NCBI GenBank assembly: GCA_016745075.1
Contig: JADGDD010000001.1
Coordinates: 1,125 to 65,124 of the forward strand
Source of the DNA: Planctomycetota bacterium
GTDB taxonomy: Bacteria; Planctomycetota; UBA11346
DNA: 64,000 bases
Direction of reading: 5' to 3'
This document shows positions 3,001 to 59,191 of the stretch, in pieces. The notes under the pieces are model-generated. The model was not told the DNA's origin and made no database searches. It saw only the letters and a list, made by a program, of their open reading frames with translations. Position 1 is the stretch's first letter, and every line of letters starts with the position of its first letter. The translations under genes were made by a program, and so were the position numbers.

Positions 3001-3240
3001 ACGACTGCTTCTCAAACACATACGATTACTGATGTGGATGCCAATCCAACGGTCGCTCTTTCAATGAGTTCTGCAACGAGCGCTGAAAACGATACGACGA
3101 CCGTAACGTATACAGCAACGTTGAGCGCGGCCAGTGGTAAAGTGTGTACGGTAAATTATGCCGTAAGCGGTACAACCTCTTTAACTTCCGATTATACGAA
3201 CGCCTCTGGTGATTATAGTATTGCTTCTAACGGTACGGTC
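1..3240 (+). repeat. Nine in-phase 360-bp tandem repeats (120 aa each), array continuing off the left edge
   Basis: AGTTTTGCCGCAGGTGAAACGAGTAAGACGATCAAA-like sequence recurs at 1, 361, 721, 1081, 1441, 1801, 2161, 2521, 2881 and, diverged, at 3241. Confidence 0.95.
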
Positions 3241-5184
3241 AGTTTTGCCGCTGGTGAAACTGCGAAGACGATATCGTTTGTGGTTGTTGATGATAACGTT
3301 CCTGAAGATACAGAAACGGTCGTTATTACATTTTCTTCTGTAAATAATATTACATCAATAACAACCGCTTCATCGCTAAGCCATTCAATCATTGATGCAG
3401 ATAATGTTGCTCCCATTATTACGGAAGGTGAATCTATTTCAGTAGTGATGGATGAAGATGGAGTGCCCACAGCCTTTAATCTTGTATTACATGTAAGTGA
3501 TGCGGACGGTGATAGCATCCAATGGCAAATTTTATCAGCTCCAAGTAAAGGCAGTGCGGAGGTGTCTGGTGTTGGGCTGACGAAATCAATTGCATATACA
3601 CCAACAGCAAACTGGAATGGGGCAGATTCGTTTGTCGTGGAGGTAACAGATGGTATTGAGACAGATACAATCACAGTTATGGTTACTGTTGCGCCAAGAA
3701 ATGATGCGTCAGTGAATACAATAGTACCTACAGTGTCAGGCTTGCTCTATGATGGGCAGGAACTTGTTGCAACAACAGGCACCTGGTCGGATGTAATTGA
3801 TGTAGCTGTTTCTGGTTCTTCGCTTATTTCCTATACGTATCAATGGCAGCGAGCAGATAATCAAAGTGGAGCAAATACGACTACGATTACAGGTGCAACA
3901 AATGCCACCTATCTACTCGCATCAGAGGATATAGGTTTTTCTGTGCGAGTGGTAGTTACAGCAATAGACACTGGGGTTGGTCTTCCGAGTACGTCGACTG
4001 CGGTGATGGCTAGTGATTGGAGTGTAGCGGTGATCAATAATACAGCGCCAGTTATTACAGAAGGAGATGCTTTCACTTTTGTGACCGATGAGGATGTTTT
4101 TGCTCAAGCAAGTATACATGCGAGTGATGTGGATAACGATGTATTAACATGGAGTATTGAGTCGCCTGCCCAAAATGGTTTGGCTACGGCAGCAGGAACG
4201 GGTACAGAAAAAATAATAGGTTATACACCAAATATAGATTGGAATGGTACAGATACATTCGTTCTTCGTGTGAGTGATGGAAAAGAATTTGATGATATAA
4301 CTGTTACAGTCACGGTCTCTCCACGTAATGATGCCCCAGTGAATACGGTAGCACCAAGTATTGTTGGAACGATGCGTGAATGGCAAACACTTACTGCTGT
4401 TGTTGGAGAGTGGAATGATGAGAAAGACACTCTTGTGTCTGGATCTTCTTCTTTGACGTATTCTTTCCAATGGCAGCGGGCGGATGATGCGAGTGGAACA
4501 AACGCGAGTGATTTGAGCGGAGCAACGCTTGTGTCTTATCAATTACAAACAGAAGACGTGCAGAAATTTATTCGTGTGGTTGTGACTGCTTCGGATAATG
4601 GTGTTGGCTTAAATGCCGTAGCATCTGCTGCAATAGAATCTACATGGTATGGTATTGTTGTAGAAAATGGACCGCCAACCATTATAGATCAATCGTTGTC
4701 GGTTATGGAAAACGTTGCTATTGGAACTGAGCTAGGGCTTATCACCGCTCAAAACTCAGAATCAGACGGTCTTCATTTCAGTATAGATGCGGAAGTACCA
4801 TTTGCTATAGATGTGAATGGAAAGCTCACCACAACAGATATGATTGATTATGAAAGTAAATCTTTGTGGGTACTAACTGTTTCTGTCGCAGATGATTTTG
4901 GAATGACGGCAAGCGGGCTTGTGACCGTTGTGGTTACTGATGCTGATGAGGCAATTGATATTACGGAAATTGTGATTACAGGTAAAGTAATTGGTTCATT
5001 GCCACAAACAGTAACCGTAGACGGTGTTCCTGTTGTGATGAATAACAATCAGTACCAATGGGTCGTACCTACTGGAGCAGATGGAACAACAACACTCACA
5101 GTACGTGTTTCGGATACAGAGGGACAAGTAACTAAAACGGTTGATATTACGGAAACAACAATTCCGACAGGAGGTGTCCAATGA
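1..5184 (+). CDS. Large Calx-beta repeat / cadherin-like surface protein, 5' end outside the window
   Basis: Frame 1 is open from base 1 (SFAAGETSKTIKLTVVNDS...). Repeated Calx-beta type units (YAVSGTAS..SDYTNASGDYS..NGTISFAAGETSKTIKL) are followed by tandem cadherin/Ig-like domains (SDADGDSIQW..., YTPTANWNGADSFVVEVTDG). Confidence 0.9.
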   Translation, partial: SFAAGETSKTIKLTVVNDSTAESSETAIVTLSTLSNISSITTASQTHTITDTDANPTVALSVNSSTSAENDTTTVTYTATLSAASGKVCTVNYAVSGTASLTSDYTNASGDYSIASNGTISFAAGETSKTIKLTVVNDSTAESSETAIVTLSTLSNISSITTASQTHTITDTDANPTVALSVSSATSAENDTTIVTYTATLSSASGKVCTVNYAVSGTASFTSDYTNTSGDYSIASNGTISFAAGETSKTIKLTVVNDSTAESSETAIVTLSTLSNISSITTASQTHTITDTDSNPTVALSVSSSTSAENDTTTVTYTATLSAASGKVCTVNYAVSGTASLTSDYTNASGDYSVASNGTISFAAGETSKTIKLTVVNDSTAESSETAIVTLSTLSNISSITTASQTHTITDTDANPTVALSVSSSTSAENDTTTVTYTATLSAASGKVCTVNYAVSGTASLTSDYTNASGDYSIASNGTISFAVGETSKTIKLTVVNDSTAESSETAIVTLSTLSNISSITTASQSLFIAEADADTKAAKTVSSSTSAENDTTTVTYTATLSAASGKVCTVNYVVSGTTSLTSDYTNASGDYSIVSNSTISFAAGETSKTIKLTVVNDGSAEPSETAIVTLSTLSNISSITTASQTHTITDSDANPTVALSASSSTSAENDAITVIYTATLSAASSKVCTVNYAVSGTASLGSDYTNASGDYSIASSGVISFAAGETTKTIKLTVVNDGTAESSETAIVTLSILSNISSITTASQTHTITDVDADPTVALSMSSSISAEDDTKTVTYTATLSTVSSKICTVNYGISGTASLTSDYTNASGDYSIASNGTISFAAGETSKTIKLIVVNDGIAEPSETVTVTLSTLSNISSITMASHTHTITDVDADPTVALSMSSATSAENDTTTVTYTATLSTVSSKICTVNYGISGTASLTSDYINASGDYSIASNGTISFAAGETSKTIKLIVVNDGIAEPSETVTVTLSTLSNISSITTASQTHTITDVDANPTVALSMSSATSAENDTTTVTYTATLSAASGKVCTVNYAVSGTTSLTSDYTNASGDYSIASNGTVSFAAGETAKTISFVVVDDNVPEDTETVVITFSSVNNITSITTASSLSHSIIDADNVAPIITEGESISVVMDEDGVPTAFNLVLHVSDADGDSIQWQILSAPSKGSAEVSGVGLTKSIAYTPTANWNGADSFVVEVTDGIETDTITVMVTVAPRNDASVNTIVPTVSGLLYDGQELVATTGTWSDVIDVAVSGSSLISYTYQWQRADNQSGANTTTITGATNATYLLASEDIGFSVRVVVTAIDTGVGLPSTSTAVMASDWSVAVINNTAPVITEGDAFTFVTDEDVFAQASIHASDVDNDVLTWSIESPAQNGLATAAGTGTEKIIGYTPNIDWNGTDTFVLRVSDGKEFDDITVTVTVSPRNDAPVNTVAPSIVGTMREWQTLTAVVGEWNDEKDTLVSGSSSLTYSFQWQRADDASGTNASDLSGATLVSYQLQTEDVQKFIRVVVTASDNGVGLNAVASAAIESTWYGIVVENGPPTIIDQSLSVMENVAIGTELGLITAQNSESDGLHFSIDAEVPFAIDVNGKLTTTDMIDYESKSLWVLTVSVADDFGMTASGLVTVVVTDADEAIDITEIVITGKVIGSLPQTVTVDGVPVVMNNNQYQWVVPTGADGTTTLTVRVSDTEGQVTKTVDITETTIPTGGVQ

Positions 5185-5483
5185 GATATGTGCTTGGGTG
5201 TTGCCTGATAGGTATATTAAGTGGATGCAGTGGCCTCATTTCAACGCCAACAATACCAGTTGGTACAGAAATTATTACAGCAGAGTTAAAAGGCGCATTG
5301 CCTGCTGTTGGAGGTGGAGTGGAGCGTCGAGTAACCGTTGATGGAGAAGATGCGCTTATTGATGGAGAAACTTGGTCACATAGCGTTGCTGTTAGTAAAG
5401 GGCAGAATACCTATGCTGTTGCCATTTATATTGGTGGTAAAGTAACTCCAGAACATGAAAAAGAGATCCATATAGATTATTGA
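5181..5483 (+). CDS. Small lipoprotein, ATGA-overlapping with the upstream adhesin
   Basis: MRYVLGCCLIGILSGCSGL has a lipobox-like LSGC; the start overlaps the adhesin stop. Confidence 0.75.
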   Translation: MRYVLGCCLIGILSGCSGLISTPTIPVGTEIITAELKGALPAVGGGVERRVTVDGEDALIDGETWSHSVAVSKGQNTYAVAIYIGGKVTPEHEKEIHIDY

Positions 5484-5624
5484 TACAGGTTAGTGATGAG
5501 TAGAGAGCACTCAATACTCGGAAGCTTGCAATTGATAGTGAGATTACAGGATGCCCTTATAACAGAAAGAAGCGCTTCTTTTCTATCTGAGGTCGTGGCT
5601 TTCGCGCAAAATAGGAATTCAGTC

Positions 5625-6083
<459 letters not shown>

Positions 6084-6098
6084 TATACTCCGGTCTTT

Positions 6099-6860
6099 TT
6101 AGAGCGGATTTGGTATATTAATGCAACTGTGTTCTAGGCCAAATTCCTGTGCAATATTTTGGCCAAGAGCATGAATAGCATGTGTTTCCGTGGCAGCATG
6201 ACCACAGGCAAAACAATGAGTCTTACATTCGGCAGCTTCATGCCAGGTTTGCTCACTTGTTTCCCCAGTGATAAGTGCATCAAGGCCGGCATCAGCAGCG
6301 GCGCATAAATAATTTTGTCCACCACCAGTTACGACACCAATACGCTTTATTTTTTTTGGGCCACCAGGAACGTGAATAACATCATGATCAAAAAGTGTTG
6401 CACAACGTGCTGTTAATTCCTCTGCGGTGATAGTTTCTGGTAGTGTGCCGTAGAGGCCAACATCTACGTTTTTATATGGGGCAAAACTGCCTTCTTGCTG
6501 TGCACCCAATCCAGAAAGGGCATGGGCGTTGTTGCCGTGCTTGGGGTGGGCATCAAGCGGTAAATGCCATGCCAACAAAGAACAGTGGCCTTGTAGCAAG
6601 GTCCGTATGCGTTTTCCGGTAAAGCCGCCAATATGGTCAATGCTGCCCCAGATAATGCCATGATGAACAACAAGTGCTTGGGCTCCAATATGAATAGCGT
6701 GCTCAATTGCACTCAGGCTTGCGCTGGTTGCAGTCGCAATATGAGTGATGCTGGTGTCGCTATCAACTTGGCAGCCATTGTGACAATAATCATTTCGGAA
6801 GAGATGGCTGTCGAGTAGATTATTAGTAAAGGTACACAGGTCTTGTTGTGTGCAGGTCAT
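6099..6860 (-). CDS. NIF3/YbgI-like dinuclear metal centre protein
   Basis: ALVVHHGIIWG, LLAWHLPLDAHPKHGNNAHAL, DALITGETSEQTWHEA and FACGHAATETHAI are NIF3 metal-site motifs. Confidence 0.85.
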   Translation of the reverse strand: MTCTQQDLCTFTNNLLDSHLFRNDYCHNGCQVDSDTSITHIATATSASLSAIEHAIHIGAQALVVHHGIIWGSIDHIGGFTGKRIRTLLQGHCSLLAWHLPLDAHPKHGNNAHALSGLGAQQEGSFAPYKNVDVGLYGTLPETITAEELTARCATLFDHDVIHVPGGPKKIKRIGVVTGGGQNYLCAAADAGLDALITGETSEQTWHEAAECKTHCFACGHAATETHAIHALGQNIAQEFGLEHSCINIPNPL

Positions 6861-6893
6861 GATGCTTGTCCTCAATAAAAGCTTTCACAATAA

Positions 6894-6925
6894 AAAGCCC
6901 TTCGCTAGAAACAACGAAGGGCTTT
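6894..6925 (-). terminator. Rho-independent terminator downstream of the HU gene
   Basis: AAAGCCCTTCG...CGAAGGGCTTT hairpin followed by T-rich sequence on the minus strand. Confidence 0.7.
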
Positions 6926-6966
6926 AGGCTATTACGCTTTACGAATAACGTTTTAATAAGCAGTGC

Positions 6967-7326
6967 TTATTTGTTCCATTCGTCTTTAGCAGCTTTTGCA
7001 ATACGGAAAACAAGTTTGCGGCCAGCTTTCTTGGCAGGAACTTTACGCTCTTCACCAAAGATAACACGAGTTTGTGCTTTACGAGCAGGTGTCTCGCGAA
7101 CAACCAGTTTGCCGATACCTGGAATGGTAGCGCCAACGCCAGCGTATTTCATTACAACGTCGCCAAGTTCTTCAACAAGGGCAGCAGCTTGTTTTTTGCT
7201 GACTTCACCGATGTCGCGTTTGTTGACTGCTTCGGTCAAATGAGCAATGAGTTGAGTTTTTGTGTAGCTCTTCTCGCCTTTTTTAGGCTTTTTAAGAATA
7301 GCTGTTGGTGCTTTGGCTGTTGCCAT
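6967..7326 (-). CDS. HU family DNA-binding protein
   Basis: YTKTQLIAHLTEAVNKRDIGEVSKKQAAALVEELGDVV..GVGATIPGIGKLVVRETPARKAQ is HU-like; start at MATAKAP. Confidence 0.85.
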   Translation of the reverse strand: MATAKAPTAILKKPKKGEKSYTKTQLIAHLTEAVNKRDIGEVSKKQAAALVEELGDVVMKYAGVGATIPGIGKLVVRETPARKAQTRVIFGEERKVPAKKAGRKLVFRIAKAAKDEWNK

Positions 7327-7562
7327 GATGCATTCTCCACAGTGAGAGGTTAAAGGATGAAGAGTGCTTTTTATCGGTGTTTTTGAAATGTCCACATAAA
7401 AATACCCGTAAATAACAGGGGATTGTGTTGCATGTGTCACAACGTCTCATGAAATACGCTTCAAAAGGCATGAAGGGGTGCAAATGATTCATGTAAAGAA
7501 GGCTTGCGAGTCGTTCTGTATTCGAGTACCCTGTTGTGCAAAGAATGAGAGGGGGCCTGGCA

Positions 7563-8648
7563 ATGGCATGGATTGACCAATTATTTGTTCGGATGAGTGA
7601 AATGGGCGCAGCGGATGTTCATATAACGAGTGAGCATGTTCCACATATACGTGATTCTGGTGATTTGGTGCCGATGGAAGGGGTTCCTGCCTTATCGGCA
7701 TCACAGGTGGAACAAATTCTGAAAGAAATCATGCCAGAGAAAAATCAGGCTGAATTCGCTGACTGTAACGATACAGACTTTGCCTATGCCTTAGAGGGAA
7801 TGGGGCGCTTTCGTGCTAATATATTTAGAGACCGTTTTGGTATGGGCGGGGTCTTCCGTCGTATTCCAGAAGAAATTCTTACGGTAGAGCAACTCGGTTT
7901 ACCAGATGCCGTGGTGAATTTAACCAACTATAAGAAAGGGCTTGTTTTAGTAACGGGTCCAACTGGTTCCGGTAAATCAACAACCTTGGCGGCGATGATT
8001 GATCATATTAACGCTACTCGCCACGAGCATATTATTACTATTGAAGACCCGATTGAATTTGTACATCCAGCCAAGAAATGTTTATTAAACCAACGCGAAA
8101 TTGGTAAGCATACGCAGAGTTTTAACGCATCGTTGCGTGCAGCTTTGCGTGAGGACCCAGATATTGTGTTAGTTGGTGAAATGCGTGACTTAGAGACAAC
8201 GCGTATTGCAATCGAAACGGCAGAAACTGGCCATCTGGTTTTTGGTACTCTGCATACCAGTACCGCGGCGAGCACTGTGGACCGTATTATTAATCAGTTT
8301 CCAGCAGAAGAGCAGGAACAAATTCGCCTCATGTTGGCTGGCTCTTTACGTGGTGTGGTTGCCCAGAACTTATTGAAGAAAAAAGGCGGCGGTCGTTGTG
8401 CTGCCCTTGAAATTATGATCTGTACTCCAGGTGTAGCTGCAAATATCCGTGAAGGTAAAACCTACCAGTTACCATCAGCCATGCAAACGGGTGCTAGATA
8501 TGGTATGCAGCTTCTGAACGATGCGCTATTTGATTTGATTAAAGCAGATCGTGTTGATCCACTGGAAGCCTACGATAAGTGCCTAGATAAAGAAGATATG
8601 GCTAAGAAACTAGAAGGTATCGGGGTAGCAGTCGAGGAATCTTTTTAG
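7563..8648 (+). CDS. pilT: PilT-type retraction ATPase
   Basis: VTGPTGSGKSTTLAAMIDHIN, ITIEDPIEFVH, LREDPDIVLVGEMRDLETTRIAIETAETGHLVFGTLHT. Confidence 0.9.
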   Translation: MAWIDQLFVRMSEMGAADVHITSEHVPHIRDSGDLVPMEGVPALSASQVEQILKEIMPEKNQAEFADCNDTDFAYALEGMGRFRANIFRDRFGMGGVFRRIPEEILTVEQLGLPDAVVNLTNYKKGLVLVTGPTGSGKSTTLAAMIDHINATRHEHIITIEDPIEFVHPAKKCLLNQREIGKHTQSFNASLRAALREDPDIVLVGEMRDLETTRIAIETAETGHLVFGTLHTSTAASTVDRIINQFPAEEQEQIRLMLAGSLRGVVAQNLLKKKGGGRCAALEIMICTPGVAANIREGKTYQLPSAMQTGARYGMQLLNDALFDLIKADRVDPLEAYDKCLDKEDMAKKLEGIGVAVEESF

Positions 8649-8675
8649 TAATTCGACCCAGACTGCATTTGTATA

Positions 8676-8710
8676 AAACGACCACCATAGAAAACCTGTG
8701 GTGGTTGTTT
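8676..8710 (+). terminator. Hairpin between convergent pilT-like and STAS genes
   Basis: AAACGACCACCA...TGGTGGTTGTTT. Confidence 0.5.
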
Positions 8711-8726
8711 AGTATGGGGGGTGTTT

Positions 8727-9095
8727 TTAGCGAACAGCAGCAACAGCTTCTTCTCGTGTTGGGAAACACTCAATTAATGCTTCAAGACCAAGTAGAGAGA
8801 ATACTTCAGAGACCACATCGCTTGGAGAGGCAATGGCAATTTTCCCAATTCGGCCTTGCTTCACTTCACTCTCTGCTTGTTGAAAGTAGTTGATGAGCAA
8901 GCCAACACCTGCGCTAGAAATATAGGTTAAATTTCTTAGCTCAAAAACGACTTGGAAATGCTTGGTGGCAGCCATGCGTTCAAGGTGACTGTCGAGAATT
9001 GGTGCAGTGTGGCCATCAAGCATACCAGCAAGGCTGATAACAATAACGGATTCGTAAACGGTTTCTTTAAGGTCGAGTTTTGAGCTCATGGCCAT
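8727..9095 (-). CDS. STAS-domain anti-sigma factor antagonist-like protein
   Basis: VIVISLAGMLDGHTAPILDSHLER..FQVVFELRNLTYISSAGVGLLINYFQQAE. Confidence 0.85.
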   Translation of the reverse strand: MAMSSKLDLKETVYESVIVISLAGMLDGHTAPILDSHLERMAATKHFQVVFELRNLTYISSAGVGLLINYFQQAESEVKQGRIGKIAIASPSDVVSEVFSLLGLEALIECFPTREEAVAAVR

Positions 9096-9166
9096 CCTGT
9101 GAAATATATTGAGGTTACGCTTCTGTACTCAGTACAGCGACTTGAGTTACGATTGCAAGCCCTAGC

Positions 9167-9400
9167 ATGTCGAGTATGGCTAAATTGAAATCTATAGAGG
9201 GCTGCTTCGCTGAGATAGAGCAGGTTGTTGATGATCTGGAGGGCGGCGACCTTCCTTTAGAACAAGCTTTTAAACGATACGAAGCTGGTCTGAAACATTT
9301 GCAGGCAGCAAGAAAGCAACTAGACGCTTATGATGCACGTCTGAAAGAATTACAAGATGATGCTGTGTCCGATAAAGATACAGAAGAAGACGTGTTGTAG
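9167..9400 (+). CDS. xseB: Exodeoxyribonuclease VII small subunit
   Basis: FAEIEQVVDDLEGGDLPLEQAFKRYEAGLKHLQAARKQLDAYDARL. Confidence 0.85.
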   Translation: MSSMAKLKSIEGCFAEIEQVVDDLEGGDLPLEQAFKRYEAGLKHLQAARKQLDAYDARLKELQDDAVSDKDTEEDVL

Positions 9401-9445
9401 AAACACTGTACAACAGCGAAAAATGATGCATATGATAGGTATATT

Positions 9446-10453
9446 TTGACTATTACCGAGGCTCCAGCATTGGCGTTATTGTGGGATGATGGAGTTTTAT
9501 TGCCAGAGCCAACATTATGTTGGCAGTGCTGGCGACCAGCCCTCATGTATGGTGGCTCGGCGTGTTTGCATTGGCGTGCAGATGCGCTTGCCGCACAGGC
9601 GGCGGGCGTTTCGTGTTTCACAACCGAGCCAGCACATGGATGTGCTCAACAAGCCGTTGTCTATACACGCAAAGAACGTGAAGCGAGTTGGAATGATGTG
9701 GTGCAGGCTTGGAATGCTTTGCCAGTTGGTGGCCGTCTCGTACTTGTGGGTGGTAATGATACCGGAATTAAAACTACAGCAAAGATCTGTGGGCAACGTT
9801 TAGGGGTAGAAGGCATTGTTGTAGCAAACCGTGCTCGTGCTCGTGCGTGTGTGTATAGCAAAATTACAGATCTCTTGGTAGAACCAACTTTTTTGCCTCC
9901 CGTTGTATTATCTGCGGAACGGTCAGAGATGTGTACAGTGGTTCCCGGTGTCTTTAGCGCTCGTGGCTTAGATGGCGGAACGGCTTTATTACTTGACGTG
10001 TTGAGTACATATGAAGGAGCAGTCTCTTTCATTCTGGATGTGGCTTGTGGCGTTGGGCATTTAGGGCTTAATGCTGTTAGACAGTGGCCGATGGCAGAGG
10101 CTCTTTTACTTGATGCTGATGCACGAGCGGTGTCCTGTGCTGCAAAAAATGGAGCACAGCTTACACCAACATCTATTGTGCGAGCTGAATGGTGGGATAC
10201 CAGTGAGGCGATTCCAAGTTGTTCCCCAGATCTCATCCTCATCAATCCACCTTTTCATACGGGTGTGCACGCGGATATGGATGTGGCTAAACAGATGTTT
10301 CAGCGGATAGAAGCCGTTGCTCAAACAGGCGCAGTTATGTTGGTTGTTGCGAATCGTCATCTGCCGTGGGAACGAGAGCTCGAACACTGTGGTCATCGTC
10401 AGGAATTGTTGTCTCAAAAAGATGGTTATAAAATTATTCGAGTAGACTGGTAA
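9446..10453 (+). CDS. Class I SAM methyltransferase, RsmC-like
   Basis: ILDVACGVGHLGLNA and LILINPPFHTGVHADMDVAKQMF (NPPF motif). Confidence 0.75.
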   Translation: MTITEAPALALLWDDGVLLPEPTLCWQCWRPALMYGGSACLHWRADALAAQAAGVSCFTTEPAHGCAQQAVVYTRKEREASWNDVVQAWNALPVGGRLVLVGGNDTGIKTTAKICGQRLGVEGIVVANRARARACVYSKITDLLVEPTFLPPVVLSAERSEMCTVVPGVFSARGLDGGTALLLDVLSTYEGAVSFILDVACGVGHLGLNAVRQWPMAEALLLDADARAVSCAAKNGAQLTPTSIVRAEWWDTSEAIPSCSPDLILINPPFHTGVHADMDVAKQMFQRIEAVAQTGAVMLVVANRHLPWERELEHCGHRQELLSQKDGYKIIRVDW

Positions 10454-10466
10454 AGAAGGAGCGGCT

Positions 10467-11216
10467 ATGGTAGTTCGATTAGATGCGTATTTAGCATATG
10501 GTGGCCTTGGTTCACGTAGTGAAGTTCGAGTTTTTGTAAAAAAAGGACTGGTTACAGTCGATGGTGTTGTCTGCAAGAAGCATGCTAGTAAAGTGGACGA
10601 AGGGCAGGTTGTGCTCTGTGATGGTACGCTTGTAGAACTGCCGCCTCGTTCTGTGGATGCGGTGCTCTATAAACCAGTTGGTTACGCCTGTAGCCATGAT
10701 CCGAATGAAGCCCCCGTGGTTGACGATTTACTTGACCCTCTTTGGGTGCGAGGGGGCGTGCAAAGCGCAGGACGTTTAGACCGTGAAACGTCAGGGCTTT
10801 TGGTCTTGTCGCTTGATGGTCAGTTTATTCACCGCCTTATTAAACCAGGTAAAGAAGTGTTTAAGCGTTATTGCATTACTTACACAGGAGAGCTTAAACA
10901 ACAGGCTGTTCGCGCTTGTGAAGAAGGTCTTATCATTGCTGGCGATTTAGAGCGGCCAACCCGTCCTGCGCGGTTAATCTTGGGTGAGACTGATGAAGAT
11001 GGCCATGGCCATGCCACCTTAGAAATTTGTGAGGGCCGCTATCACCAAGTTCGTCAAATGATAACAGCCCTTGGTGGTCAGGTAATTGCATTACATAGAG
11101 ATCGAATAGGTGCTTACACCTTACCTGTGGATATGGAGGCAGGAGAAACAGTCCTATTAAGCGAATCGGATAAACAAGATTTACTGGTTGCGGGTTTAAG
11201 AGCTGTAGAGGCATGA
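10467..11216 (+). CDS. Pseudouridine synthase, RsuA/RluB family with S4 domain
   Basis: N-terminal S4 (RLDAYLAYGGLGSRSEVRVFVKKGLVTVDG), SAGRLDRETSGLLVLSLDG, and EGRYHQVRQMITALGG. Confidence 0.85.
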   Translation: MVVRLDAYLAYGGLGSRSEVRVFVKKGLVTVDGVVCKKHASKVDEGQVVLCDGTLVELPPRSVDAVLYKPVGYACSHDPNEAPVVDDLLDPLWVRGGVQSAGRLDRETSGLLVLSLDGQFIHRLIKPGKEVFKRYCITYTGELKQQAVRACEEGLIIAGDLERPTRPARLILGETDEDGHGHATLEICEGRYHQVRQMITALGGQVIALHRDRIGAYTLPVDMEAGETVLLSESDKQDLLVAGLRAVEA

Positions 11217-14727: not shown

Positions 14728-16074
14728 TTACAATACTTCAGCGGCAACACCAGCTAGCTCAGAGCGCTCGGCTCGTTTTAAGGTAATGTGTCCCGCAATG
14801 GAGTGGCCGCGCATGCGTTCGGTTACATAGGTGAGGCCATTGGACGATGCATCTAAGTATGGGTTGTCGATTTGGTAGGGGTCACCAGTGAGCACGATTT
14901 TTGTTCGTTCACCTGCTCGAGATACGATCGTTTTTATTTCGTGAGGGGTGAGGTTTTGTGCTTCATCAACAATAAGATATTGGTGGGAGATTGAACGGCC
15001 ACGGATATAAGTGAGTGCTTCTAAAGAAATCGTTTCGTTGTCAATGAGGCTGCGGATAATGTCATCTGGATCACGTTCTTCATGGGCGAGGATAAAATGG
15101 AGATTATCAAAAATTGGCCCCATCCAGTGCGTCATTTTTTCGTCTTTTGTGCCAGGTAAATAACCAATGTCTTGACCGAGTGGCATAATAGGTCTGCTGA
15201 CAAGCATTTTATTATAGGCTTCTTCACGTAGGGTCTTTTGCATACCAGCAGCAAGTGCGAGTAATGTTTTCCCAGTGCCTGCTGTTCCAACAAGAGTGAT
15301 TAATTTCACATTGTCATTCAGTAATAAATCAAGGGCAATAACTTGTTCAATATTGCGTGGATGAATACCAGAGACGTGAGCAATATGACTATCTATAGGA
15401 GTGAGTGTTTGTGTCTCGATATCAAATCGACCAACAAGGTGTTTGTCTTCCTGTGTAGCATCTTCTTCTCGTATGATAAGATATTCATTTGCTGCAATAT
15501 CAAGGTCTTCGAGACAGGGGTCATCCGCAGGAATCGGGATACCTTCTTTGAAATCATGAAAGATGCCGCTGCTAATTGTTGCACGATGAATACCTGTTGG
15601 TAATTCATCAATATTCACTTTCTGAACGTCATAGTCGTCGGTATCAATGCCTAGAGAATCTGCTTTAATGCGTGCGTTAATGTCCTTAGAGATAAAGGAG
15701 ACATTATGCCCTTCTTCTTTCAAAAGGTGGGCACAGCCAAGGATTTTATTATCCATGATTCCAGGTAAAAGGCCATCAAGGGTGGCATACCGAAGAATAA
15801 CTTGAATGATCCCGCCTTTTTCTGTGGCAACTCCTGCGCGTAATGATCCTTTTTTGCGGAGTTTATCAAGGAGGCGTACAACTTCACGAGAGTTGCGACC
15901 AAGTTCCGTGCTTTTGGTTTTGAAATTATCAAGCTCTTCAAGAACAGTCATTGGGATAACAACGTGGTTATTTGCAAAATCGAGCAGAACGTTTGGATTG
16001 TGTAGAAGGATGTTGGTATCAAGTACAAATGTTTTGCGTTCATTGCCGTCTTGGGTCAGGCTGTTGCTATTCAT
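14728..16074 (-). CDS. PhoH family protein with N-terminal PIN domain
   Basis: PIN: KTFVLDTNILLHNPNVLLDF; PhoH: LVGTAGTGKTLLALAAGMQ, VSRPIMPLGQDIGYLPGTKDEKM, LIVDEAQNLTPHEIKTIVSRAGERTKIVLTGDPYQID. Confidence 0.9.
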   Translation of the reverse strand: MNSNSLTQDGNERKTFVLDTNILLHNPNVLLDFANNHVVIPMTVLEELDNFKTKSTELGRNSREVVRLLDKLRKKGSLRAGVATEKGGIIQVILRYATLDGLLPGIMDNKILGCAHLLKEEGHNVSFISKDINARIKADSLGIDTDDYDVQKVNIDELPTGIHRATISSGIFHDFKEGIPIPADDPCLEDLDIAANEYLIIREEDATQEDKHLVGRFDIETQTLTPIDSHIAHVSGIHPRNIEQVIALDLLLNDNVKLITLVGTAGTGKTLLALAAGMQKTLREEAYNKMLVSRPIMPLGQDIGYLPGTKDEKMTHWMGPIFDNLHFILAHEERDPDDIIRSLIDNETISLEALTYIRGRSISHQYLIVDEAQNLTPHEIKTIVSRAGERTKIVLTGDPYQIDNPYLDASSNGLTYVTERMRGHSIAGHITLKRAERSELAGVAAEVL

Positions 16075-19052
16075 TTGGTTTCCTCTGTTTGTTCTGGTGC
16101 CTGGTCCGGTGCTTGGTTTTGTAGTTGCGCTTCTGGTTCAGATTCAGGCTGAACGTCTTCAACTTTGGGGATTGTGGCTCGTTTTTCTCGGATGCGTTGT
16201 ATTTGAGTGTATATCTGTTCTGCCCGTCCTTGGTAGGTCGGGTTTTTATCAAAACGGTGTGGAGCGATTAGCATAAGTATTTCGGCAGCAATGCCGGTGT
16301 CGGATGGGTTCTGTTCGTAATCTTTTAACAAGCTATCAGCACGTTGCAGCTTTTCGATAACGGTTTCCCTCGTGACACCAATTTTTTCTTCTCGTGGCTC
16401 CGCTTGTTCTTCAGTCTCAAGTTCTTCTAGAGTGTCTGCGGTTGGTGCTGGTGGAGTTAGCTCTGCTGTTGTTGCGTCTTGAGTTGTGTCTTGAGTGGGT
16501 TCTGTTGCTGTTGAAGCAGGCTTCTCTTCTGGTAGGTTTTCTTCTGCTGTTGGTGCTTGTTGTGCTATATTTCCCTCGTCCTTTGTTTTTTTCTCGTCTT
16601 CCGTCTTTTTTCCTTTTTGTTTGGTTGGGTCAGAGCTTGGTAAAACATGGACTAAAGCAGAGGGTTTTGTGTTTTCTGCCTGTTGTACTTCTGTCTGTTG
16701 TGCACCTTTTCTTGTTTGTTCTGTGTCTGAGTTTTCATCGGGCAGAGTACTTGGTTGTGGTTTGATGACAACAAGAACTGCAAGAGTTATAATAATTGCA
16801 AGTAGCACGATGATGATGATAATAATAGGCACCATGCTGCTTTTCTTTTTCTTGCGAGAAGGTCTTTCTTGTTCTTGTGCTTCGCTCTCGAAGTCTTCAT
16901 CAAAAGTGTCGTGGCTACGTCTACGGCCACCAGCACGTGCAGGGGTGCGGTTCAGAGTACCACGACGTTTTGATCCAGATATATCCTCTTTCACATTGGT
17001 ATTATTGTCTTTTCGACGGCCTCTGCGGTCGTGAGAGGCTTCTTGGCCTTTATCACTTTTTTTGCCACGGCGATAGGTAGATTGAGTTACTTGTCGGTTT
17101 GAAACTTGTGCTGTGTTGCTTTTTGCCGCTTGCATGGTGTTTCGTTGGGCGCCACCACCAAAGAATTCAAGCCGATTAATCAGATCGCTATATTCTTGGA
17201 AGCGTTCGGTGCGTTGGGCTTCTGTAAGCATGGCGCAGAAAGCATCTAATTGTCTGCTGACATCAGATTGTTGTGAACGGAGACTTGGTGCACCACTGGT
17301 GCGTACTTGAACAAGTGCCTCGTGGGCACTGTACCCTTTTACTAAACCACCACCGGTAATCATACGGAAGAGCAGCGCGCCAAGGAGAAATATGTCAGTA
17401 CGTGAATCAGCGGGTTCGTTATTTAAGACCTCTGGAGCAAGGTAGTATTCGGTAGCAGCGCTTGAGCCCATACGTTGGTTGAGCAAGAAGTTAAAGGCGG
17501 TTGGTACCCCAAGTTCATCAAGGTAAATACGACCTGCCGCACTCATCAGAATACAGTCGGGCCGAACCCAGCCATGAATAACGCCATTGCGTGCGGCTTC
17601 CTCAAGAGCAAGTGCGACTTGGCGAACAATCCCCATCGCTTGTGGTGGGGCGAGCGTACGACGGCGAGCAAGTACTTGAGTCAACGTTTCTGATTCAGGA
17701 ATATTGCTGCTAATAATAACTGGTGTTTGTCCAGACCAACGTAGAGCCACAATCGGTACAAGATTGGGGTGTTTGGCATTGCTGGCAACGGTAACGTATT
17801 GTTCTAAGGATTCTCTTATGCCTGGTTGGGCTAGGTAGGTTTCACTGAGCGCGAGTGCACGAAATAGTTCACCAAAGGCATTTTTTACGATAAATCGACT
17901 ACCATGAATGCCAATATCAAGAGTTGAAACAATGGCATAGCCAGGAATTTGTAAGTTTTGAGTAATGGTGTTGCCAGCAAAAAGTGTATCGTTGCTACCA
18001 GAGCCATCGCTGAGTGTGCTGACTTCCAGTGGTTGTAAGGGTGGCGGGTTATTACTCGGTAATGACTGCGGAATTTGTTGCTGTGGATACGGAGTTGGTT
18101 CTATCGATTGTGGTACCGTTGATGAGACTGATTGCGGCGGTAATTGTGGTTGAGGAGTTGGCTGAGGTGAATGTTGAGGTAGTGGTGTTGGAGTCTTGGG
18201 TTGAACAACACTAGTTTGACCGGTTTCTCGGTTTCGAACCTCAATAAGTGTGCTGCACTGTCCGCAGGAAAAAACATCGCCAACCTGAACGCTAGGAACT
18301 TCTAAAATTGTTTCGCATGAGCAGCAGGTAATGAGCCATGATTCTGGTTCAGTTAATACCGCAAGAGTATTATGGCGTGGGCGTAATGCTGGTGGTTCTT
18401 CGGTTGGGGACGGTACTGCTAAGGCTTGTTCTTCTGCATCTTGTTCCTCTGCTTGTTTGCGAAGGCGAGAAAGGTTTTGCACAGTAATAGACTCAACGAG
18501 TAATTTACAAATGGCGTGTAATGTTTCGATAACGCCGCTGCCATGTTCTGCATCCGCAGGAAAGGACGGTAGTAAATTGCTATTTAATAAAGGGTTGAGC
18601 TGGGTGTATTCAAGTGCATCCGTGCTGTGTTGTTTGTTAAATTGAATGACAATGGGAAGTGTGTCTGCGGATTCATTGTGGTTAATGAAATCCCACATGT
18701 CGTTGAGTGAGTCAATGTTTTCTTCAATAGCGCTACGGGTAGAATCAGCAACAAAGACAATGGCATCAGCTTGTTCAAGGATTTTACGTCGGTTGGTATT
18801 GATGTAACTTTCACCAGGGGTCGTCAAAATATGGAGACGAACAGCAAGGTTGTCCATTTTGGGAAGAAAAGATGGAAGTATATCGAGAAAGAGTAGACGC
18901 TCTGAGGCAAGTTCCGTTGTCGTGATTTGACTTGGGCTATGCTGGCCAGCATGTGCTTGGATATGGCGCAGATTCGTGCTTTTACCTGACATCCCTGGGC
19001 CAAAATAGGCAAGGGTGCATACGAGTTCCTGTGTTTGTAGGTCGATATACAT
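16071..19052 (-). CDS. MglA-like GTPase fused to zinc ribbon, pseudokinase, TM segment and C-terminal region
   Basis: MYIDLQTQELVCTLAYFGPGMSGKSTNLRHIQAH and TTPGESYINTNRRKILEQADAIVFVADST are MglA-like; CCSCETILEV..CGQCSTLIEV; kinase-like fold with HGWVRPDCILMS and YLAPEVLNNEPADSRTDIFLLGALLFRMITG; MVPIIIIIIVLLAIIITLAVLVV TM. Start set at the internal ATG (ORF opens at 19130). Confidence 0.8.
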   Translation of the reverse strand: MYIDLQTQELVCTLAYFGPGMSGKSTNLRHIQAHAGQHSPSQITTTELASERLLFLDILPSFLPKMDNLAVRLHILTTPGESYINTNRRKILEQADAIVFVADSTRSAIEENIDSLNDMWDFINHNESADTLPIVIQFNKQHSTDALEYTQLNPLLNSNLLPSFPADAEHGSGVIETLHAICKLLVESITVQNLSRLRKQAEEQDAEEQALAVPSPTEEPPALRPRHNTLAVLTEPESWLITCCSCETILEVPSVQVGDVFSCGQCSTLIEVRNRETGQTSVVQPKTPTPLPQHSPQPTPQPQLPPQSVSSTVPQSIEPTPYPQQQIPQSLPSNNPPPLQPLEVSTLSDGSGSNDTLFAGNTITQNLQIPGYAIVSTLDIGIHGSRFIVKNAFGELFRALALSETYLAQPGIRESLEQYVTVASNAKHPNLVPIVALRWSGQTPVIISSNIPESETLTQVLARRRTLAPPQAMGIVRQVALALEEAARNGVIHGWVRPDCILMSAAGRIYLDELGVPTAFNFLLNQRMGSSAATEYYLAPEVLNNEPADSRTDIFLLGALLFRMITGGGLVKGYSAHEALVQVRTSGAPSLRSQQSDVSRQLDAFCAMLTEAQRTERFQEYSDLINRLEFFGGGAQRNTMQAAKSNTAQVSNRQVTQSTYRRGKKSDKGQEASHDRRGRRKDNNTNVKEDISGSKRRGTLNRTPARAGGRRRSHDTFDEDFESEAQEQERPSRKKKKSSMVPIIIIIIVLLAIIITLAVLVVIKPQPSTLPDENSDTEQTRKGAQQTEVQQAENTKPSALVHVLPSSDPTKQKGKKTEDEKKTKDEGNIAQQAPTAEENLPEEKPASTATEPTQDTTQDATTAELTPPAPTADTLEELETEEQAEPREEKIGVTRETVIEKLQRADSLLKDYEQNPSDTGIAAEILMLIAPHRFDKNPTYQGRAEQIYTQIQRIREKRATIPKVEDVQPESEPEAQLQNQAPDQAPEQTEETK

Positions 19053-19165
19053 AGATGTGTTTCGCCTTTGTGTCATGAACGGGGATACCCAGCGCTGGCC
19101 CGAGTAGAGTTGGGAGGCTGAATGAACCATAGCCAGTATGAGGCGTGCAAGTGTATAGCAATAAG

Positions 19166-19777
19166 CTATTTGGGCTGATTACTGGTGGAATCTTCTACAT
19201 TTTTATTAAAAAAGGAGGTGGCCAGTAAAATCATGAAACCAACCGATATCCCTGCATCGGCAATATTAAAGGTTGGCCATGGGTCAAATGGTGGAAACCC
19301 AAAATCCACATGAATGAAGTCTCGTACGCCATAGAGGGTGTCACTCATATGGGCTCCAAGACGGTCCCAAGCATTGGCAACCGCACCACCAAGAACAAGA
19401 CCAAAAGCAATGTTTTCAGAGAGGCCTAAGAGGCGGTACCAACGAAAGTAGACCCAAGCAATGAGGGGAATAAGTAGCATGGTCATAACAGCAACGACTA
19501 CTGGCATGCTGCTCATGAAAGACCAAGCAACCCCAGTGTTCCATGCAGGGTTAAACCATGATGGATAGTCCGGTTTGCTGGCGGTCCAAAAGCAGCGCAA
19601 TGTCTCTGGGTCGGTGAAAACATGAGCAAAAACGGCGTATTTTGACCACAAATCGAGTATGCAGGTGAGGAGCGCAGCGAGCCAAAACCCAAGAACCCAT
19701 GATCGTGCCATATGCGTTGGAGCTGTCTGATCAGACGTTGATAGCGGAGTTTCATTCATTAGAGTACTTCTATACAT
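19166..19777 (-). CDS. lspA: Lipoprotein signal peptidase
   Basis: DLWSKYAVF, NPAWNTGVAWSF, GGAVANAWDRL, FNIADAGISVG. Start may be the internal ATG at 19759. Confidence 0.9.
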   Translation of the reverse strand: MYRSTLMNETPLSTSDQTAPTHMARSWVLGFWLAALLTCILDLWSKYAVFAHVFTDPETLRCFWTASKPDYPSWFNPAWNTGVAWSFMSSMPVVVAVMTMLLIPLIAWVYFRWYRLLGLSENIAFGLVLGGAVANAWDRLGAHMSDTLYGVRDFIHVDFGFPPFDPWPTFNIADAGISVGFMILLATSFFNKNVEDSTSNQPK

Positions 19778-20699
19778 GAATGTTCAGACAGCGCAATCAG
19801 GTCCTTATTACGGCCAGCAGTGGACTCTACGCTGCTCGGGGAGCCCCGTTCTTGCTCACGGGAGTATTGACGGTCAGGCTTCAGTGCCTCAAATCATGGC
19901 GATACTTAATTGCACACCAGATAGTTTTTCCGATGGAGGCCAGCATTTTCGGCATGACGCCGCCAGAGATGCTGCTCGTCAAGCTGTTGAAGATGGGGCT
20001 ACATGGTTAGATATTGGTGGCGAAAGTTCCCGTCCTGGCGCACAGCCAGTGTCAGAAGCAGAAGAGCAGCGACGTGTTCTTCCAGTTATCGAATCGATAG
20101 TTCAAGAGCAGATCAATGCCGTTATTAGTGTTGATACCTGTAAGGCCAGTGTTGCCGAATTGGCGTTACAGGCAGGTGCACATGTAATCAATGATATTCG
20201 TGCTGGTGCAGATCCTGACATGTTTTCTGTGGTTGCAGATGCGAATGCGGGCATGGTGCTTATGCATATGCAGGGTACGCCCAAGAATATGCAAGATCAA
20301 CCGCAGTATACTGATGTTGTTGATGAAGTTATTGCTTTTCTACAGAATCGCATGGATGCGGCCTGTGCAGCAGGTGTACCAGAATCTGCTATTATCCTCG
20401 ACCCTGGTATCGGCTTTGGCAAAACCGTGGAACATAACCTTGCGCTTATGCGCGGACTTGAGCGCTTGCTCATAAGTTGCGGACGGCCATTATTGCTTGG
20501 AGTGAGTAGAAAATCATTTATCCCAGCCCTGCTCAGTCAGGCAGTGTCAGTCAACTTTGGTGCAGAGCGAGACATGCCAAGTCACGTTGTGCATGCATTG
20601 CTTGCGCCACACAGTACCATTATGCGCGTCCATGATGTGCCTGGTACGCGTGATGCGCTTACCATATGGCAAGCGCTTGGAGGGCACACGCATGCCTGA
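19776..20699 (+). CDS. folP: Dihydropteroate synthase
   Basis: MAILNCTPDSFSDGGQHF, DIGGESSRPGAQPVSEAEE, ILDPGIGFGKTVEHN, GVSRKSFI. Confidence 0.9.
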   Translation: MNVQTAQSGPYYGQQWTLRCSGSPVLAHGSIDGQASVPQIMAILNCTPDSFSDGGQHFRHDAARDAARQAVEDGATWLDIGGESSRPGAQPVSEAEEQRRVLPVIESIVQEQINAVISVDTCKASVAELALQAGAHVINDIRAGADPDMFSVVADANAGMVLMHMQGTPKNMQDQPQYTDVVDEVIAFLQNRMDAACAAGVPESAIILDPGIGFGKTVEHNLALMRGLERLLISCGRPLLLGVSRKSFIPALLSQAVSVNFGAERDMPSHVVHALLAPHSTIMRVHDVPGTRDALTIWQALGGHTHA

Positions 20700-21483
20700 G
20701 TGGTATATTTTGTATGGTGCCCCTGCGATTCAAATCGCTGTCTTAAGTGCACTTATCTACTCCATCTTTTTATCTGTCGACCGGCATAGTGCTGGTGGTA
20801 AAATTAAAGGTATGGCGGTTATTCTTTTAATCGTAGCTGTTGCCGCATGGGGTGCTCAACGCGCAGAATTACACGCTGTGCAGGCCATGTTAGAAGCACT
20901 GTTGGTCGCTTCACCCTTGTTGCTGGTTATTATCTTTCAACCGGAAGTACGTCGTTTATTTATTCGTATGGGCGGTGTACTTACTAAAAATGATATTATG
21001 GCAGCAAGTTCTATGATCGACCGTTTGGTGGAAGCGATGCATTTACTTGCTGAAGAAGAAACTGGCGCGCTTATTGTGTTAGAGCGTGGTGACCATTTTG
21101 ATGATTATATTGCAGCGGGGCCGTTTGATTGCGCTATATCAGTACGTAGTTTGCGTACTATATTTTGGAAAAACTCTCCAGTGCATGATGGAGCCGTTAT
21201 TATCCGAACGATGGCTGGTGAAGAAGGCCGTGTTGTTGCCGCTGGGGTTATTTTACCGCTCACCCAAAACCCTGTTTACCGTGCTATGTCTGGTACTCGT
21301 CACCGTGCTGCTATTGGTATTTCAGAAGAAACGGATGCTATTGCCATTGTTGTGTCTGAAGAGAATGGCGACATTAGTTTTGTATCTTCGGGTAAAATAG
21401 AGCGTGGTTTATCTCGTGATGAATTGGCGGATAAATTACACGGAAACTTCGGTGCGCGAGCACGAAGGAATACAGCAGAATGA
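20692..21483 (+). CDS. cdaA: Diadenylate cyclase (CdaA/DisA_N)
   Basis: N-terminal TM helices, then FQPEVRRLFIRMGG, NSPVHDGAVIIR (DGA) and GTRHRAAIGISEETDA (RHR). Confidence 0.92.
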   Translation: MPEWYILYGAPAIQIAVLSALIYSIFLSVDRHSAGGKIKGMAVILLIVAVAAWGAQRAELHAVQAMLEALLVASPLLLVIIFQPEVRRLFIRMGGVLTKNDIMAASSMIDRLVEAMHLLAEEETGALIVLERGDHFDDYIAAGPFDCAISVRSLRTIFWKNSPVHDGAVIIRTMAGEEGRVVAAGVILPLTQNPVYRAMSGTRHRAAIGISEETDAIAIVVSEENGDISFVSSGKIERGLSRDELADKLHGNFGARARRNTAE

Positions 21484-22583
21484 ATATTTTCGGCCTTTTC
21501 ACCAACTGGGAATATAAGTTAATTGCCGTTTTATTGGCATCTGCTTTGTATGTCTATACGTCAGATAGAATTAGTGAAAAGAAAGACTATCCGTTCACAG
21601 AGATTCTTCCTGAGCATATTCTCTTGCCAGAAGGAGGAGACCGTTTTGTGGTGCGTAGTATTCAGCCACAAAATGTAGATATACGGGTTGCTGGTTCGCG
21701 CGAGTTTATAGAGGACTTAGCAGAACAGCAAACATTAACGATAGACTTATCTGGTCGGCAAATTATTGAGTCTGGTGAGATCATTGTTGAGATAGCAGAC
21801 CGTATGCTTGGCACAGGTCCGAATATTCGTGTTGAAAGTATATTGCCAAGAACTTTGCGTATTAATGTTGTGAAAGAAATACGTCGTCCAATTATTGTTT
21901 CAGACAACGTTTTAGTGAGCCATGCGCCAGAAGGCATAGAGGTCGTATCGCAATTAACGAAGAAGGTAGAAGTCTGGGTTCGTGGACCAGAAGATTTGGT
22001 TGCTAACATTAACCGTTTAGAATGTGAGCCAATTGATTTAGCTGAGTCACAGGTGCAGTTTGAACAGCCAACGTTAGAAAAACAATCGTATAGCACTTAT
22101 ACACGTATTAGTCCGATAGGCGGTGTGGTGTTTGAGGATGTATCAACGGTTCCAGTAGAGTTGGTCGTAGAACATAAAACATCAGAAAAAAGAAAAATGG
22201 TTCCGCTCAGTTATGCGCTGCCAGAAAATCTTGTAGATGAACGAGATATTGTTGTTCGTTGTGATAAAGAAGTCTCTATTACCTATACCTTGCCAGATAA
22301 ACGAATTGATGATTTTGATCCAGAGAGTTTACATGCGATCTTTCGTGTCTCACCAGAAGCAGCAATGAATACGGAAGAACCAGCAATTGTAGAAATAACC
22401 GGTAACCCACCAAGTTATGTTAAAATAGGCCAAGTTGATAAAGTGTATTATAAATTAGAACTGCGCAAAGAAGAAGTGATTAACCAGCCGCAGGAAACAG
22501 TGTCTCCTGTATTTGATGAGGATCAATTTTTGCTTGAAGAAGAATACGACCCCGCCACAAGCGTTCCGAATTTTTCTGAATAA
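21480..22583 (+). CDS. YbbR-domain (CdaR-like) protein
   Basis: One N-terminal TM (NWEYKLIAVLLASALYVYTSD) and YbbR-like beta repeats; ATGA overlap with cdaA. Confidence 0.8.
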   Translation: MNIFGLFTNWEYKLIAVLLASALYVYTSDRISEKKDYPFTEILPEHILLPEGGDRFVVRSIQPQNVDIRVAGSREFIEDLAEQQTLTIDLSGRQIIESGEIIVEIADRMLGTGPNIRVESILPRTLRINVVKEIRRPIIVSDNVLVSHAPEGIEVVSQLTKKVEVWVRGPEDLVANINRLECEPIDLAESQVQFEQPTLEKQSYSTYTRISPIGGVVFEDVSTVPVELVVEHKTSEKRKMVPLSYALPENLVDERDIVVRCDKEVSITYTLPDKRIDDFDPESLHAIFRVSPEAAMNTEEPAIVEITGNPPSYVKIGQVDKVYYKLELRKEEVINQPQETVSPVFDEDQFLLEEEYDPATSVPNFSE

Positions 22584-33717: not shown

Positions 33718-33915
33718 GGTAATCCTTTGTGAAAGAGTGTGGGTAGATGGTGGTAATGCTGATCATCCAAGGCTGGAATCAGCTCTTGTGGTGAAGGCAA
33801 AACATGCTTAGGGTGTGCACAAAACAGCAAGTGGCATTTTGTAGACTCTGTAAGCCCTGTGTTGACGATCCTTATATGTATCGTATTACCTATCTATTGT
33901 TTTGAGGGAGGTGTT

Positions 33916-53656: not shown

Positions 53657-54334
53657 ATGCAAATACCAGAGAGGTATGTTTCTTATCTTCGAGTATCAAC
53701 AGCTCAACAAGGACGGTCAGGCCTTGGCCTCGAAGCCCAACGAAAGGCCATTGAGGACTATCTACAGCAAACAGGCGGTGAACTAGTCGCCCCCGAGTTC
53801 TTAGAGGTGGAAAGTGGCAAGAAGAAAGAGCGCCCCATCCTAAGGGATGCGATCCAGCACGCCAAGCAAAATAATGCCATTTTGTTAGTCGCCAAACTCG
53901 ACAGACTAGCAAGAAACCTTGCCTTCATTACTCAGCTGCAAGAGGCGGGTGTAGCCTTCCGAGCTTGTGATATGCCCGAAGCAAACGAGTTTATGGTGCA
54001 TATCCTTGGAGCAGTAGCTCAGTATGAGCGTAAGATGATAAGTGAGCGAACTAAGGCAGGGCTAGCCGCTGCAAAGGCGCGAGGAGTAAAGCTAGGACGT
54101 CCAGAGAACCTTGTGCATGGACTTGATGATCCCGCCGCTATCTGGAACTCCAAGCAGAGAGTTATGGCACTAGAGGCGGCTGAAAGGCTACGTCCAGTTA
54201 TCAAGGAGTTGCAGGAACGGGGTATAACAGGAGTTCGGGCAATATGTAGAGCCTTGCAAGAAAAGGGGCATAAGACGGCACGAGGTGGAGTTTGGCATCC
54301 CGCAAGTGTATCGCGGTTACTAAAACGCTTATGA
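53657..54334 (+). CDS. Small serine recombinase (resolvase/invertase family)
   Basis: YVSYLRVSTAQQGRSGLGLEAQRKAI, LLVAKLDRLARNLAFI, GAVAQYERKMISERTKAGLAAAKARGVKLGRP. Confidence 0.92.
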   Translation: MQIPERYVSYLRVSTAQQGRSGLGLEAQRKAIEDYLQQTGGELVAPEFLEVESGKKKERPILRDAIQHAKQNNAILLVAKLDRLARNLAFITQLQEAGVAFRACDMPEANEFMVHILGAVAQYERKMISERTKAGLAAAKARGVKLGRPENLVHGLDDPAAIWNSKQRVMALEAAERLRPVIKELQERGITGVRAICRALQEKGHKTARGGVWHPASVSRLLKRL

Positions 54335-59188: not shown

Positions 59189-59191
59189 GTT

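Follow-up and report, generated by a model that had tools for sequence, protein, structure and literature searches.

A stretch of 64,000 nucleotides from the genome of a Planctomycetota bacterium was analyzed and is termed the window here. It harbors a gene at positions 16071 to 19052 encoding a protein of 993 amino acids, in which an MglA-type GTPase is followed by a four-Cys zinc ribbon, a disordered Pro/Gln linker, a kinase fold, a basic stretch, a transmembrane (TM) helix and a Pro/Glu tail. The single uninterrupted frame spans positions 16071 to 19130; the start was assigned by alignment to the ATG at position 19052, which agrees with every orthologue, and the further 26 upstream residues are not common to the orthologues. 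Directly upstream and in the same orientation lies lspA encoding a lipoprotein signal peptidase (19166 to 19777); directly downstream follows the conserved neighbor phoH2 (14728 to 16074), which encodes a PIN-domain RNase combined with a PhoH RNA helicase. These three genes, and hence all parts of the fusion protein described below, are located on the minus strand. In the sequence ATGA, the stop codon TGA of the fusion gene shares bases with the start codon ATG of phoH2. Scans for promoters and terminators gave matches at chance level only.

An earlier note on this DNA had proposed a one-chain fusion of GTPase, ribbon, kinase fold and TM helix. Domain search and structure prediction bore this out, and the motifs GPGMSGKST, TTPGESYINTNRR, NKQH, CxxC..CxxC and HGWVRPD as well as the hydrophobic helix were all found in the protein. 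A model of the core obtained with AlphaFold2 from a 20-sequence alignment reached a mean pLDDT of 80; the placing of the domains relative to one another is uncertain, with a pTM of 0.48 for the core and 0.40 for the extracytoplasmic part. A frameshift or an assembly join of separate genes, raised in the same note as an objection, was checked and found no support: the same domain order recurs, each time as a single open frame, in independent genomes from many genera, and such an artifact has practically no chance of being the explanation.

The GTPase domain and its variation

The MglA-type GTPase domain comprises residues 1 to 188 (18489 to 19052), with the P-loop GPGMSGKS and the intrinsic Arg (R52) kept. 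A phmmer search matched the protein to the MglA entries 6hjh, 5ymx and 3t12, with E-values of 1e-28 to 1e-30, the latter for Myxococcus MglA; a profile comparison gave an E-value of 2e-55, and MglA 6hjo was the solved-structure match of the core model in Foldseek (TMt 0.94). The G3 motif of the window copy reads TTPGE, Glu replacing the catalytic Gln, and its guanine-specificity motif NKxD reads NKQH with His in the Asp column. A fused paralogue in the same genome has Gly at the catalytic Gln position and reads NGQ, the NKxD Asp column being gapped.

Across the fusion family (n = 20), the catalytic Gln was found in 15 members, the intrinsic Arg in 18 and the NKxD Asp in 18. Most members carry TVPGQ or TIPGQ together with NKQD; therefore, NKQH and TPGE are a decay special to the window genus. 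Other changes of the GTPase motifs were seen in genus g7 and genome G003 (alignment A1), and of the extra paralogues of genome G009 one has a remnant GTPase only and another is devoid of any GTPase. Judged by these residues, most members have an intact GTPase, and in some it is changed. Since it is altered or missing in part of the family, the pseudokinase, not GTP turnover, is the persistent core.

The domain shares fold, P-loop, TxPG-type G3 motif and intrinsic Arg with Group 1 of the MglA proteins (Wuichet and Sogaard-Andersen 2014, PMC4316618). Unlike these, the fusion protein contains a zinc ribbon, a pseudokinase and a TM helix and has no Roadblock gene alongside; in the window copy, moreover, neither the Gln nor the NKxD Asp is present. 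The MglA family of small GTPases is taken here to comprise single small domains of up to 240 amino acids; the fusion protein is multidomain and has 993.

Zinc ribbon, pseudokinase and membrane anchor

The zinc ribbon (residues 239 to 283, 18204 to 18338) retains its four Cys in 20/20 fusion members; the orthologue ribbons resemble LysW with an E-value of 2e-5, slightly under the Pfam cut-off. It is followed by the Pro/Gln-rich linker (residues 284 to 362, 17967 to 18203), which is predicted to be disordered with a pLDDT below 50. The pseudokinase domain (residues 363 to 631, 17160 to 17966) was delimited by Pfam, the AlphaFold model and alignment to PknE. It matched Pfam Pkinase with an E-value of 2e-15, above the Pfam cut-off, and PknB was its solved-structure match (Foldseek on the AlphaFold model, TMt 0.84).

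Catalytic residues were compared through the alignment to PknE. The beta3 Lys, the HRD Asp and the loop Asn are each kept in 0/20 members, and the DFG Asp, the APE motif and the subdomain IX Asp are kept in 20/20. As the earlier note had stated, HGWVRPD (17556 to 17576) stands in place of the HRD motif; compared with HRDLKPEN, catalytic Asp and loop Asn are absent. The note's reading of LDELG as a lost DFG did not hold, as DEL (17511 to 17519) retains the Asp when compared with PknE. The motif HGWLRP(D/E) is nearly invariant in the family, with HG[WHFY] in 19 members and HSW in one, and the beta3 Lys position is occupied by Ala in the window copy and by V, A, S, T, R, I or E across the family. 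By these residues the kinase is dead throughout the family and is classified as a true pseudokinase, in agreement with the inactivity that the earlier note had considered probable. The objection that a canonical active kinase was wrongly read as degenerate was checked as well. An intact DFG Asp and APE motif, together with the other activities that exist among some pseudokinases, speak for it, but with none of the 20 members keeping the Lys, the HRD Asp or the loop Asn we consider it very improbable. Mean pairwise identity was 59% for the C-lobe, 55% for the ribbon, 48% for the GTPase, 39% for the N-lobe and 21% for the linker. A C-lobe conserved without catalysis suggests a role in binding.

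The functions of bacterial pseudokinases are largely unknown according to the part of O'Boyle et al. (2025, PMC12599244) considered here. In the GLW pseudokinases described in that part, GLW replaces HRD and Leu or Trp replaces the beta3 Lys; the fusion family instead has HGW(L)RP(D/E), does not show the latter trait and, unlike them, keeps the DFG Asp. For the seven pseudokinase families, the same part of the article makes no mention of a GTPase partner domain, in contrast to MglA in the fusion. Receptor kinases of the PknB/PASTA type likewise combine a kinase fold, a basic juxtamembrane stretch, one TM helix and an extracytoplasmic region. In the fusion, however, the kinase is inactive and preceded by MglA and the ribbon, and its orthologues have lectin-like in place of PASTA domains. 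LRRK2/Roco proteins likewise join a Ras-like G domain to a kinase fold within one polypeptide; the fusion differs in having MglA and not Roc, an inactive kinase and a TM anchor. No COR domain was detected in Pfam scans of the fusion protein, and the best solved match was MglA. The likeness to LRRK2/Roco is one of plan only and thus convergent.

Membrane anchoring, also claimed before, is supported by hydropathy, which indicates one TM helix (residues 740 to 763, 16764 to 16835) preceded by the basic stretch. Hydropathy likewise suggests a single-pass topology with GTPase, ribbon and pseudokinase in the cytoplasm and the C-terminus outside. To call MglA normally a standalone protein, as the earlier note did, is misleading here: 18 of 19 distinct ordinary MglA sequences examined from the phylum carry a C-terminal TM helix of their own, and their genes sit among Roadblock genes. 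Therefore, the anchor is not the novelty; what sets the GTDB family of the window's genome (f1) apart is a G domain separated from the TM helix by ribbon and pseudokinase, together with the outer region.

This outer region comprises about 650 predicted extracytoplasmic residues with galectin/CBM66-like beta-sandwiches in most orthologues and was found whole or in part in 21 of 24 f1 genomes with alignment A2; the same search did not detect it in the window's genome or the window copy. It matched no Pfam family. The AlphaFold model of an orthologue's outer region had a pLDDT of 84, and its beta-sandwiches matched galectin LEC-6 and CBM66 with a TMt of about 0.6 in Foldseek. The modeled folds suggest that the outer region of the orthologues may bind carbohydrates. 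The Pro/Glu-rich tail of the window copy (residues 764 to 993, 16074 to 16763) is shorter than that of most orthologues and has no beta-domains. A match to PF05014 at residues 899 to 957 lies within this tail, below the Pfam cut-off.

Distribution and gene neighborhood

Searches with the family alignment A1 detected the fusion in 17/17 sampled f1 genomes with E-values of 4.7e-111 or better, and in 0/231 other genomes of the phylum, where the best match had an E-value of 1.1e-66; the strong matches listed outside f1 span the GTPase part only. The 16S probe PLA46 for Planctomycetes has an exact match in two members of the phylum and matches with 1 to 3 mismatches in four others, which points to Planctomycetota. 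In a tree of GTPase domains, a branch with 100/100 support separates the fused from the ordinary MglA sequences, as expected from one origin. The inner order of this tree is unsure because some fused sequences have very long branches. The two copies of the window's genome are sisters (99/96); the second one is located at C11:488307-490064, directly behind an intact Ser/Thr kinase gene and an FHA-GAF-cyclase gene and not beside phoH2. A scan of the genome's contigs with the fusion protein returned unrelated kinases only. PADLOC matches to PD-T4-6 and mad6 were rejected as a sign of defense, being generic kinase similarity.

Where sequence is available on the upstream side, lspA directly precedes the fusion gene in 20/20 loci; phoH2 follows it immediately in 16/18 loci, the exceptions being G004 and G013. 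These two loci and the paralogue, none of them adjacent to phoH2, indicate that the fusion protein can exist without the phoH2 linkage. Nine phoH2 loci outside f1, two of them on short contigs, had neither lspA nor the fusion gene beside them. PhoH2 is the sole PhoH protein of the window's genome; a strong match to classical PhoH was missing in the four f1 genomes searched and present in most other members of the phylum. Additionally, a divergent folP-cdaA-ybbR cluster adjoins lspA. A gene neighborhood is no proof of function.

Mycobacterial PhoH2, the role of which is poorly characterized, is a PIN RNase coupled to an RNA helicase, and phoAT, located upstream and co-transcribed with phoH2, encodes a protein which interacts with PhoH2 (PMC7390352). 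The fusion gene resembles phoAT in lying directly upstream of phoH2, with which it is probably co-transcribed. In contrast to the short, antitoxin-like PhoAT, the fusion is a membrane protein of about 700 to 1500 amino acids and, by synteny, a candidate partner of PhoH2.

A PilT-family ATPase is indeed encoded in the region, at positions 7536 to 8648 (TIGR01420, above cut-off), as the earlier note had said; the link drawn to the fusion gene did not stand. The ATPase gene lies 7.4 kb from the end of the fusion gene on the other strand and had no match in the other f1 loci examined, the flanks of which cover a few kb. The conserved neighbors are instead lspA and phoH2, and the immediate downstream gene encodes PIN-PhoH2. 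The name PIN refers to the PilT N-terminus. The Roadblock genes of the window's genome occur only in a cluster on C30, together with a separate ordinary MglA gene.

Proposed role and alternative readings

No description of an MglA-ribbon-pseudokinase architecture was found in the open-access literature. The parts are already known; as far as this literature shows, their combination is new. It may have escaped description because the survey of prokaryotic Ras-like GTPases left out sequences longer than 240 amino acids (Wuichet and Sogaard-Andersen 2014, PMC4316618). The MglA-type switches known so far are free proteins that act on separate effectors; in the fusion, such a switch shares one polypeptide with a conserved dead kinase, at a locus that also encodes an RNA-decay enzyme. 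The protein thus offers a natural system in which to study how a kinase fold and a G domain act on each other within one chain, and raises the questions of what bacterial pseudokinases do and whether PhoH2 can be membrane-controlled.

The anatomy of the protein is firm, and a mechanism can be proposed on this basis. We favor, with a probability of about 0.45, a membrane-anchored, single-pass GTPase-pseudokinase scaffold which relays signals to cytoplasmic partners. According to sequence and model, its cytoplasmic side would consist of the MglA-type GTPase, the zinc ribbon and the pseudokinase, followed by one TM helix; on the far side, most orthologues would expose beta-sandwich domains of the lectin or carbohydrate-binding-module type together with a helical region. 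The cytoplasmic part of a typical member may be rearranged by a signal from the envelope or by the GTP state of its MglA domain, and the pseudokinase C-lobe would offer a docking surface for proteins instead of acting as an enzyme. As a client, PhoH2, co-encoded downstream, is the leading candidate; in mycobacteria, too, PhoH2 interacts with a protein whose gene lies upstream and is co-transcribed. The cell's active Ser/Thr kinases come second, and we regard the two candidates as nearly equal. The window copy would be a derived member from which the outer sensor has disappeared, along with the residues that hydrolyze GTP and confer guanine specificity, and therefore probably is a constitutive or nucleotide-insensitive platform.

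The pseudokinase might instead act as an adaptor which binds and allosterically controls an active Ser/Thr kinase, the phoH2 linkage being incidental. This is a tentative alternative. The genome gave 48 Pkinase matches, 46 of them above the cut-off; among the 30 best of its remaining kinases, HRDxKxxN is kept in 29, the paralogue follows an intact kinase gene as well as the FHA-GAF-cyclase gene, and neither APE nor the core of the C-lobe varies; however, the conserved neighbor at the ancestral locus is phoH2 and no kinase gene. Rather unlikely is the more far-reaching proposal of a glycan or cell-wall receptor, in which the Ras-like switch and the pseudokinase, acting through PhoH2, would make mRNA decay respond to a signal from outside, in a separately evolved parallel to LRRK2; later members would have given up both sensor and GTP cycle.

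A role in polarity or motility, with the fused MglA acting together with Roadblock (MglB) proteins and PilT like MglA/SofG in Myxococcus, would fit the Group 1 features of most members, among them the Gln in 15/20 and the Arg in 18/20, the PilT ATPase in the window and the Roadblock proteins of the genome. We regard it as improbable: the Roadblock genes accompany an ordinary MglA gene away from the fusion gene, the distant, oppositely oriented PilT gene was not found in the other f1 loci examined, and neither the catalytic Gln nor the NKxD Asp is retained in the window copy. Likewise improbable is a decaying duplicate that is losing its function in the window genus. The missing outer beta-domains, G3 Gln and NKxD Asp, the presence of two copies in the genome, the altered GTPase motifs in g7 and G003 and the G009 paralogues with a remnant or no GTPase are consistent with decay. 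Against it, the reading frame of 993 amino acids is intact, and the P-loop, the four Cys, the core of the pseudokinase and the position between lspA and phoH2 have all been preserved.

Additional pseudokinase copies and ordinary MglA

The genome containing the window (G000) carries a second copy of the fusion gene on contig C11, in the region 4981-11181 of locus L059. In this region the copy is directly preceded by a gene for an FHA-GAF-nucleotide cyclase and one for a Ser/Thr kinase that is intact. Additional pseudokinase paralogues were found in G009, another genome of the same GTDB family (f1), at L177 777-2534 and L178 548-2785; a GTPase remnant was present in one of them and no GTPase in the other, the GTPase-less paralogue containing part of the extracytoplasmic outer region of fusion orthologues.

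Non-fused, ordinary MglA is encoded in G000 by a 487-aa open reading frame with Roadblock genes on both sides (G000:C30:14839-17252, locus L004). Ordinary MglA of the phylum possessed a TM anchor in 18 of 19 distinct sequences; a description of such TM-anchored proteins was not found in the literature.

Genes flanking the fusion

Divergently from lspA, the plus strand of the window carries at 19776-22583 folP, a gene for a diadenylate cyclase with a DAC domain, and a YbbR gene; lspA was again neighboured by folP and YbbR in some members of f1. A PhoH search which included four f1 genomes revealed PhoH2 in place of classical PhoH in all four; most other members of the phylum gave a strong match to classical PhoH, and these four genomes gave none.

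Other genes of the window

A type IV pilus ATPase of the PilT/PilU family is encoded at 7536-8648 (+; TIGR01420, score above cut-off), without a match in the other f1 fusion loci examined. Two open frames of 761 aa (33859-36144, +) and 545 aa (54599-56236, +) gave no Pfam match at E 1e-5. The Gabija anti-phage pair GajA-GajB was identified at 56978-60991 (+); this region may be mobile, because a serine-recombinase-like gene is located at 53657-54334. The gene at 43-5184 (+) encodes a probable surface protein of 1713 aa, in which Calx-beta domains are combined with cadherin-like or Ig-like ones.
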